64,000 nucleotides of DNA, from positions 1-64,000 of the forward strand of contig JABSRP010000033.1 of the NCBI GenBank assembly GCA_013215145.1, given 5' to 3'. Under the pieces are notes generated by a model. The model had not been told where the DNA came from, did no database searches, and saw only the letters and a list, made by a program, of their open reading frames with translations. This stretch comes from Pseudobacteriovorax sp. GTDB taxonomy: Bacteria > Bdellovibrionota_B > Oligoflexia > Oligoflexales > Oligoflexaceae. A program made the translations under genes and the position numbers. Positions 756 through 57,048 of the stretch are shown piece after piece. Position 1 is the first letter of the stretch. Every line of letters starts with the position of its first letter.

Positions 756-1814
756 TTGAATCAAGAACAGTATATCATTAAACGCAAACTAAACATTGTC
801 GAGCTATCGGAAACACTTGGAAACATCTCAGAGGCTTGTAGACACCTCGGTGTAAGTCGCAGGCACTATTACGATATTAAAGATGCTATTAAGTCTGACG
901 GTATCGAAGGCTTACTTGAAAAGTCCCGCAAAAAGCCTAGAGTAGGCAACAGGGTAGCACCTGAAGTGGAGAACGCTCTTTTAAATTACTGTCTCGAATA
1001 CTCAACCCACGGACAGACTCGGGCATCTAACGAGCTTGCTAGGAGAGGCATCAACGTAAGTCCAGGCGGGGTGAGATCAATCTGGTTGCGTCATAGCCTT
1101 GAAAAGAAAGCACAAAGACTGAAGCGGTTGGAAAAGTGGGCTGCTGAGAATACTGGAATTCATGCCGATAGCCAGATTCATGCCTTGGAAGAAGCTAAAC
1201 TCGATAAGCAAGAACATGGAGAAATAGAGGCCCCTCACCCCGGTTTTGTTGTAGGACAAGATACATATTATGTAGGTTATATCAAAGGAATAGGTAAGAT
1301 TTATCAACAAACTGGAATCGATGTGTATTCAAACGTAGGTTTTGCAAAACTTTACACTGACAAAACAGCAATAACTGCTGCTGATTTCCTAAATGACAAG
1401 GTACTGCCTTTCTTTGATAAATATAAACTGGTACCGCTCAAAATTTTGACCGATCGCGGTAGGGAATACTGCGGAAGTCAAGAGAATCATCCTTTCCAAT
1501 TGTTTCTATATCTGAACGAAATTGAACATAGCAAAACCAGGCCACGCAGGCCGCAATCCAATGGGTCGACGGAGAGATTAAATCAGACGGTGCAAAATGA
1601 GTTCTACGCACTCGCTTTTAGAAAGACACTCTATACTAGCATCGAAGAAATTCAACGCGATCTAGACGCGTTTATGGCCTCTTATAACGAAAACAGAACT
1701 AACCAAGGCAAGAACTGCAAAGGTAGGACTCCGAAAGAAACTTTTGAAGCTAATATTGAGCTTTACAGCCAACATGTACATCAACCTCTTGCAAAACCGG
1801 AGTATTTAAATTAA
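756..1814 (+). CDS. IS481-family transposase (DDE integrase fold)
   Basis: This 352-residue transposase cuts and joins the ends of its own element. Residues 16-45 form a helix-turn-helix of the IS481/IS3 kind (NISEACRHLGVSRRHYYD). Next come a second DNA-binding segment and the rve/RNase H-like core with Asp169 (VGQDTYYVG), Asp233 (LTDRGREY) and Glu273 (SNGSTERLNQT), a spacing of 40 between the last two. The length is normal and the frame uninterrupted, so the enzyme may be active. The start is TTG at 756 behind GGAAGGAG. That ribosome-binding site lies in a perfect inverted repeat, which predicts low translation. Confidence 0.93.
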   Translation: MNQEQYIIKRKLNIVELSETLGNISEACRHLGVSRRHYYDIKDAIKSDGIEGLLEKSRKKPRVGNRVAPEVENALLNYCLEYSTHGQTRASNELARRGINVSPGGVRSIWLRHSLEKKAQRLKRLEKWAAENTGIHADSQIHALEEAKLDKQEHGEIEAPHPGFVVGQDTYYVGYIKGIGKIYQQTGIDVYSNVGFAKLYTDKTAITAADFLNDKVLPFFDKYKLVPLKILTDRGREYCGSQENHPFQLFLYLNEIEHSKTRPRRPQSNGSTERLNQTVQNEFYALAFRKTLYTSIEEIQRDLDAFMASYNENRTNQGKNCKGRTPKETFEANIELYSQHVHQPLAKPEYLN

Positions 1815-56220: not shown

Positions 56221-56252
56221 TAAGGGGTTTTTTTCCAAAGGGTACAATGCTA

Positions 56253-56441
56253 GGATTTTCGTAGGACCCTCTCGTCAGGAGAAATCACTCCGATGTAAGG
56301 CCCTATAGGCTAGAAGCCTAGGAAAGGAGGTGGTGCTTTGGTGTTAGATTCTTACACTAGTAGCATGGAGGTGGTCGTAGTATAACGACTTCCTCCCTGT
56401 TACGCACCGGCTTCCGGAAAATCTGGAGCCGGTCCCCAAAG
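56253..56441 (+). ncRNA. candidate structured RNA between orn and the RHH/Asn-rich gene
   Basis: This 190-base stretch folds on paper into successive hairpins: TCTC/GAGA (56270-56282), TAGGCT-AGA-AGCCTA (56306-56320), GTGTTAG/CTTACAC (56341-56357), GGAGG..GTCGT/ACGAC..CCTCC (56367-56396) and ACCGGCTTCC/GGAGCCGGT (56406-56433). CTTTGG (56336-56341) and CCAAAG (56436-56441) can close a helix around the last three. Eight GGA motifs occur. An extended Shine-Dalgarno AAAGGAGG (56323-56330) precedes a mini-ORF. TACAAT (56243-56248) is a possible -10 with no good -35. The strand is inferred from the mini-ORF; the reverse strand would be the 3' end of the gene at 56452. Confidence 0.5.
56338..56385 (+). 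CDS. putative mini-ORF in the structured RNA
   Basis: AAAGGAGG (56323-56330) stands 7 bases before TTG (56338) and 10 before GTG (56341). Both open the same frame, ending in TAA at 56383-56385. The GTG start gives 14 residues, MLDSYTSSMEVVVV. The ORF runs through the third hairpin and into the GGAGG/CCTCC stem, so ribosomes on it would unfold these. It could be a leader peptide, but no plus-strand gene follows. It may equally be a chance ORF. Confidence 0.3.
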   Translation: MVLDSYTSSMEVVVV

Positions 56442-56451
56442 ACAGCAACGT

Positions 56452-57048
56452 CTATTTGCGCGATCTCTCTTGATTTCGTACATACTCTAGAAAGGTAGCT
56501 TTGTCGTCCATGATCGATTGATACCGGCCATGGCTCATGCCGCTTCGACCTTTTCCACCACGATTACCGTTTCGTCCGGAGTTATTGTTCCCGTTGCCGT
56601 TATAGTTATTGCGATTTCCCGACTGAGAATTGCCTGAGCCACGCATCTGATTCTTTCGTTCCACAATTTCCCATGCTCGTAAAACGACACTTTCAGCAAG
56701 CAGCTCGCTGATAAAATCTTGAAGTTCGATACCCTCTTCAGCAGCCTGTCTTTCAAGCTTTTTTCTGAGTGAATTGGATACGGCAACTTCAAGCGATGAT
56801 TTTTCACAGGAAGCAGCAGAGGCAGGAACAGGTTGATCGAAATCTGCCTCTAAAGCGAATGCTTTTTCAAGCGGAGGAGACTCGGTAGACCCGCTGTGGT
56901 CGCTAATCTGAGGTCCTTGCCGATCGACTTTAGACTCCGAATCTTCTGATGATGGCATAACATCAATTGGCGCCTTCTTTTTCCTTGGTGTCCGAGTTTT
57001 TCGAACTGATTTCGCCTTTTTCGTGGGGGTTTTGGCAGTTTCGGCCAT
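56452..57048 (-). CDS. basic Asn/Gly-rich protein with a ribbon-helix-helix-like centre
   Basis: Three parts are visible in 198 residues. The N-terminus (1-30) is Lys/Arg/Pro-rich like histone-H1 tails (KKAKSVRKTRTPRKKK). The middle (about 85-130: LEVAVSNSLRKKLERQAAEEGIELQDFISELLAES) resembles a ribbon-helix-helix or plasmid-partition helix pair. The C-terminus is low-complexity Asn/Gly/Arg (NNYNGNGNNNSGRNGNRGGK) with an RGG motif and a conserved-looking end, SIMDDKATFLEYVRNQERSRK. Nucleic-acid binding is likely, identity unknown. GGAG precedes the ATG. The stop is 10 bases from the structured RNA. Confidence 0.6.
   Translation of the reverse strand: MAETAKTPTKKAKSVRKTRTPRKKKAPIDVMPSSEDSESKVDRQGPQISDHSGSTESPPLEKAFALEADFDQPVPASAASCEKSSLEVAVSNSLRKKLERQAAEEGIELQDFISELLAESVVLRAWEIVERKNQMRGSGNSQSGNRNNYNGNGNNNSGRNGNRGGKGRSGMSHGRYQSIMDDKATFLEYVRNQERSRK

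Follow-up and report, generated by a model that had tools for sequence, protein, structure and literature searches.

Is the run of inverted repeats that surrounds a strong Shine-Dalgarno sequence and a very short open reading frame at 56253-56441 of the window (the whole 64,000-nucleotide stretch of DNA that was analysed) a gene in its own right, a control element of a neighbour, or an accident, and, if it is a gene, what is its product? Judged from comparison of related sequences, it is, with a probability of about 0.9, a free-standing conserved RNA gene (56263-56440) that carries a translated mini-ORF and is absent from Rfam. The predicted product is a structured RNA of ~175 nt on the + strand, with an extended -10 promoter of its own and with four hairpins, three of which are well supported by covariation. 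Its parts, in order, are as follows:

56248-56256, + strand: extended -10 promoter, TGCTAGGAT (TGnTAnnAT)
56263-56304, + strand: P1, the 5' hairpin close to the inferred start of transcription, AGGACC...GGCCCU with inner GUC AGGAG / CUCC GAU
56306-56320, + strand: P2 hairpin, UAGGC-UAGAA-GCCUA
56321-56332, + strand: SD1, GGAAAGGAGGUG, complementary to the 16S 3' tail to a near-maximal extent
56333-56366, + strand: P3, with a GUGCU/AGCAU base and a UGGUGU/ACACUA upper helix; the mini-ORF begins inside P3
56338-56385, + strand: mini-ORF, UUG start, UAA stop at 56383-56385, 15 codons, MVLDSYTSSMEVVVV
56367-56372, + strand: SD2, a second GGAGGU (GGAGG at 56367-56371), 11 nt before the stop codon
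56367-56396, + strand: P4 hairpin, GGAGGU...CCUCC; the UAA stop is in its loop or next to it
56360-56403, + strand: outer extension of P4, GUAGC/GUUAC
56406-56433, + strand: 3' hairpin, terminator-like by position, ACCGGCU...AGCCGGU, a 7-nt perfect inverted repeat

The + strand folds to -86.4 kcal/mol against -64.1 kcal/mol for dinucleotide shuffles (z -4.6), and the segment 56266-56440 to -72.9 against -51.8 kcal/mol (z -5.1), whereas the opposite strand folds less well relative to its shuffles (z -2.5). Of 25 distinct orthologs, 23 have a TG-extended -10 element (TGnTAnnnT) just 5' of P1, and this element tracks the start of P1 as the distance from P1 to the core changes. With the conserved promoter, Shine-Dalgarno sequence, ORF and better fold all on the + strand, the earlier suggestion that the region might be the 3' UTR of the opposite gene is not supported. 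A search of Rfam 15 with the RNA returned no family match at the gathering score, nor at permissive thresholds; the copies from relatives and the lookalikes from other phyla discussed below likewise matched no family, and our paper searches found no description of the RNA. Together with the order-wide conservation, the covariation and the dedicated promoter, this supports the possibility, raised in the preliminary description, that the locus encodes a regulatory RNA of no known family. That a cluster of inverted repeats and an ORF came together by chance might be argued from the commonness of short repeats and the silence of Rfam, but this is refuted by the conservation, the covariation and the promoter and ORF tests, and we regard it as next to impossible.

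A DNA search matched the core in 30 of 56 relatives, and a covariance model of 83 positions found matches at E<=4e-10 in 28 of the 43 genomes of the order Oligoflexales, a group of soil and water bacteria, with both Oligoflexus and Pseudobacteriovorax among the carriers. Each carrier genome holds a single copy, except G001, which holds two. The second copy in G001 (L151, G001:C18:72453-72512, minus strand) is diverged and has the mini-ORF MTSFDNSSMEVRTS. The families f6 and f11 consistently lack the RNA, as does f12, which lies outside the order, and in f11 and f12 the absence includes genomes that are >90% complete; no convincing covariance-model match was obtained in f4 and f5. Beyond the order, the covariance-model search of the same phylum gave only weak, chance-level scores. 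The weak matches L054-L056 were set aside as chance or something else; L054, from an f11 genome (about 1500-1600, minus strand), is a tandem-like repeat of AAGGAGGTGGTTTGGAGG, SD-rich and unlike the RNA.

The hairpins were examined by swapping their strands between genomes in 5000 permutations and comparing pairing strength. None of the 5000 did as well as the true partners for P2, P3 or P4. In P2, all five pairs are paired in 100% of cells and three of the five show double-sided changes; in P3, 96% of cells are paired in the base and 82% in the upper helix, and one pair is doubly changed in 9 of 18 sequences; in P4, 10 of 25 strand pairs outperform all partners taken from other families. P1, which is present in the predicted fold and displays compensatory changes between families, has weaker support than these three, with 8 of 5000 permutations as low. 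The preliminary description had proposed related genomes and covariation as its check, and both gave a positive result: the RNA recurs across the order, and P2, P3 and P4 covary.

Every motif that it named was found where it had placed it, including AAAGGAGG at 56323-56330, with the first GGAGG at 56326-56330, CCTCC at 56392-56396, and CTTTGG/CCAAAG at 56336-56341/56436-56441. However, the long-range CTTTGG/CCAAAG helix that it drew from the last pair was dropped, as the pairing is neither seen in relatives nor part of the best fold; CCAAAG also occurs a second time upstream. Its two mutually exclusive folds fared unequally: the pairing of the GGAGG at 56367 with CCTCC is conserved and covarying, whereas the alternative pairing with SD1 only has a counterpart in some relatives. 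In the window copy, pairing of SD1 with a downstream CCUCC is not above chance (z +0.4). It is strong in f7, f8 and one f3 genome, via a different CCUCC, that of the terminator hairpin, where the 3' hairpin contains a stretch of the CACCUCCUUUC type, complementary to SD1. In many relatives the 3' hairpin is accompanied by a T-run; the window copy lacks a U-run, and no canonical terminator was found at its 3' end.

The surroundings speak to whether the RNA serves an adjacent gene. The identified neighbours in the window are orn, DsbA-like and SBP genes, and orn lies upstream of the RNA in many relatives. Downstream, the RNA is followed by a convergent gene on the minus strand (56452-57048). The product of this gene is Asn/Arg/Gly-rich and without a Pfam match; several relatives have sequences related to it 1.0-1.3 kb downstream from the RNA, and a protein search with it against the genome contigs found no relatives. 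Convergent downstream neighbours vary, comprising this N-rich protein and speE-like, purF-like and fumarase-like genes (by eye). At L013 and L025 (f3), the RNA lies within 1-1.5 kb of bS21 and uS10 (by eye) rather than orn. This variation between lineages fits a free-standing gene. A cis-acting attenuator or leader peptide controlling a downstream gene would share the layout of Shine-Dalgarno sequence, short ORF, alternative hairpins and terminator, and in some genomes a same-strand gene does follow, often M14 carboxypeptidase-like, elsewhere fabF-like or others (by eye). However, leader-peptide attenuation presupposes a same-strand downstream gene, and the next gene is convergent here and in several relatives while the neighbours differ; at the window locus, a cis leader is excluded by this convergence. 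The leader reading raised in the preliminary description is very improbable.

The most conserved unpaired stretch of the RNA is SD1, which is nearly invariant among the copies of the order. The consensus 3' tail of 16S rRNA in the order is GGAUCACCUCCUUUCU, and SD1 is exactly complementary to it over 11-13 nt in most members, and over only 7-8 nt in seven. For the window copy the figure is 11 nt, with the tail sequence taken from relatives because a search of its own genome's assembly did not find the 16S 3' end. A complementarity of 11-13 nt exceeds the need of ordinary initiation. It also bears on the reading of the RNA as a dual-function base-pairing sRNA that regulates mRNAs, with the mini-ORF secondary. 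A free-standing unit with its own promoter and a stable structure would suit such an sRNA, but SD1 complements the 16S tail and is not a seed of mRNA type, and the ORF is kept in every member; we find it improbable. A Csr/Rsm-type sponge was considered only; the conserved core has just two GGA-rich sites, one of them inside P4.

The mini-ORF was compared across the order. Among 29 Oligoflexales loci that were collected by the model without any frame requirement, all 29 have a start 6-12 nt after the AAAGGAGG site of SD1 and a UAA or UAG stop exactly 11 nt past the second GGAGG. The interval between SD1 and SD2 ranges from 33 to 47 nt and falls in all three classes modulo 3, so that indels would break the frame unless it were selected. 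Shuffling the interval retains such an ORF in only 4-24% of cases, giving a chance product of 1e-11 over 11 family representatives treated as independent, and the mini-ORF that had been proposed to follow a strong Shine-Dalgarno sequence and end in the GGAGG/CCTCC stem is thereby upheld. The stops are TAG in 16 loci, TAA in 13 and TGA in none, against TGA ends in 20 of 52 long ORFs of the same loci. The start is UUG in the window, with an in-frame GUG adjoining, and AUG, GUG or UUG in relatives. Close relatives differ by 66 nonsynonymous and 12 synonymous changes, a rough count from overlapping pairs, where the neutral expectation is 21-23% synonymous; this near-neutral ratio implies a peptide sequence that drifts within a maintained frame. 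Thus, on these comparisons, translation itself seems to be of more consequence than the peptide it yields.

The main rival to the ribosome-capture mechanism that we set out below is a functional micropeptide, with a peptide of 14-18 aa, often Cys/Ser-rich, as the product and the RNA fold merely controlling its translation. The frame kept in every locus would accord with it, as would the composition: in mini-ORF codons before SD2, Cys codons make up 14.4% in frame versus 1.7% and 0% in the other frames, even though no codons are rarer in the window than TGY, and the Chloroflexota mini-ORFs show a similar bias (7.2% versus 1.2% and 0.6%). CC and CxxC motifs recur in the 14-22 aa peptides of the Oligoflexales and Chloroflexota mini-ORFs. 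Ser codons are also enriched in frame, an enrichment that for Ser-AGY is largely set by the AGUAGC of P3. However, substitutions look neutral at the peptide level, the window peptide has no Cys, the Cys positions are not fixed among members, and the -EV- ending follows from SD2 and the -SS- from P3. We therefore hold the micropeptide to be unlikely.

Our preferred mechanism, held tentatively and at somewhat less than even odds, is that of a free-standing, self-folding mini-gene that captures ribosomes and acts in a manner akin to the CreT RNAs. The transcript would be translated over its 15-codon mini-ORF, and the RNA would act through that translation. SD1 would recruit 30S subunits very efficiently unless covered by P3 or, in some relatives, by a 3' CACCUCCUUUC. 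The ribosome would open P3 and arrive at the UAR stop inside P4. SD2 sits 8 nt 5' of the last sense codon, so with the stop in the A site it would precede the P-site codon by 8 nt, as in an initiation complex, and re-pairing of the anti-SD with SD2 at termination would be expected from this geometry. The terminating ribosome or the post-termination 30S subunit may then be held rather than released, and the RNA, acting in trans, would titrate or sense ribosomes and possibly minor tRNAs. Against capture, SD1 or SD2 could be kept for the fold or for protein binding and not to hold ribosomes, the complementarity of SD1 drops to 7-8 nt in seven members, the 3' SD-masking element is lineage-specific, and the presence of one copy per genome suggests a specific regulatory output. 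A pure ribosome trap would also have no need of the in-frame Cys/Ser enrichment, which may reflect the peptide or tRNA usage.

Among known systems, the autoregulatory site of prfB (RF2) combines an SD-like sequence at very short spacing with a UGA stop at which a +1 frameshift leads into a long ORF. There, as proposed here, the SD-like sequence lies within an ORF and influences the ribosome at a stop close by; the present RNA differs in its 8-nt spacing, its UAR stops and the absence of a downstream frame. tmRNA (RF00023) too is a structured RNA with a short reading frame, but the present RNA has no tRNA-like domain; a tmRNA or tmRNA substitute was rejected, there being no Rfam match and a genuine tmRNA elsewhere, at G000:C122. 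By its layout, the nearest working analogue is the CreT RNA of the CRISPR-regulated CreTA modules, which depends on a strong Shine-Dalgarno sequence, a start codon that works efficiently, rare codons in succession and a stable stem-loop, and whose action involves no peptide (PMC8501985, PMC10097628). Both have the strong Shine-Dalgarno sequence (here the 11-nt complement of the 16S tail), the mini-ORF and the stable downstream stem-loop (here P4), and CreT acts by translation or by loading the translation machinery, as proposed here. The conserved P1 and P2 and the second SD at the stop belong to the present RNA, and while CreT rides with cas genes, this RNA is conserved across an order. A stricter version, in which the RNA ties up a minor tRNA through strong initiation followed by rare codons and stalling before the stem-loop, could draw on the published requirements and peptide-free action, and on the enrichment of rare TGY codons in the mini-ORFs. 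However, the window copy has no consecutive rare codons after its start (GTG, TTA, GAT and TCT, at 10.7-39 per 1000), and order-wide persistence in changing neighbourhoods is unlike an addiction module. Nor is a CRISPR-linked CreTA module supported. In such a module the RNA adjoins CRISPR-cas and is repressed by a CreA guide, but in the 50-64 kb part of the window no close direct repeats of >=20 nt, and hence no CRISPR-like array, were found, and the identified neighbours are the orn, DsbA-like and SBP genes. We consider the minor-tRNA version improbable as well. Sensory uORFs such as the copper-responsive CruR (PMC9426467) likewise involve a short Cys-containing ORF whose translation regulates, but they act on downstream genes, whereas the present unit is free-standing and not every copy of it encodes Cys.

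An exact-pattern search of GTDB genomes also matched Tepidiforma, other Dehalococcoidia, Caldilineaceae and Fermentithermobacillaceae; seven such genomes gave exactly one match each and none to the reversed control. In Chloroflexota, 14 of 301 genomes matched, about 12 of them convincingly, against control matches in five. Since the pattern itself demanded SD1, SD2 and UAR, their presence is no independent evidence; an in-frame start 4-9 nt after SD1, which it did not demand, is present in 18 of 18 collected loci. The strands of the P3-like helix belong together (1/5000 permutations over 13 loci), and in the Chloroflexota and Fermentithermobacillaceae loci SD2 is retained in each of the three reading frames, and hence constrained as nucleotides. 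A loose pattern across Firmicutes yielded mostly background (34 genomes, with the control matching in a similar number), so that only Fermentithermobacillaceae is credited there. Single-copy units of the same blueprint occur in Chloroflexota (L059, L060, L063, L070, L079, L084, L090-L099 and L101) and Fermentithermobacillaceae (L071, L072), often with a -10-like element close 5' of SD1 and a GC-rich hairpin downstream; that of Tepidiforma sits between a divergent rpsB and a birA-like gene (by eye). The same plan recurs in some members of both groups, whose copies may be homologous or convergent. A bolder proposal, which we think rather doubtful, is a new RNA class in at least three phyla that meters or captures ribosomes by means of a near-maximal SD, a 14-22-codon ORF, an SD2 set at initiation spacing from a UAR stop and a hairpin around that stop, with anti-SD re-pairing at termination as the working step.

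If the ribosome-capture mechanism is true, the output of this RNA gene would be neither a peptide nor an antisense match but an event, the loading of a ribosome and its subsequent retention at a stop codon; the gene would also offer a natural system for anti-SD re-pairing at termination and for the sensing of free ribosomes. Even without the mechanism, the locus defines a well-delimited, order-wide RNA family with a mini-ORF, no Rfam entry and lookalikes in other phyla.
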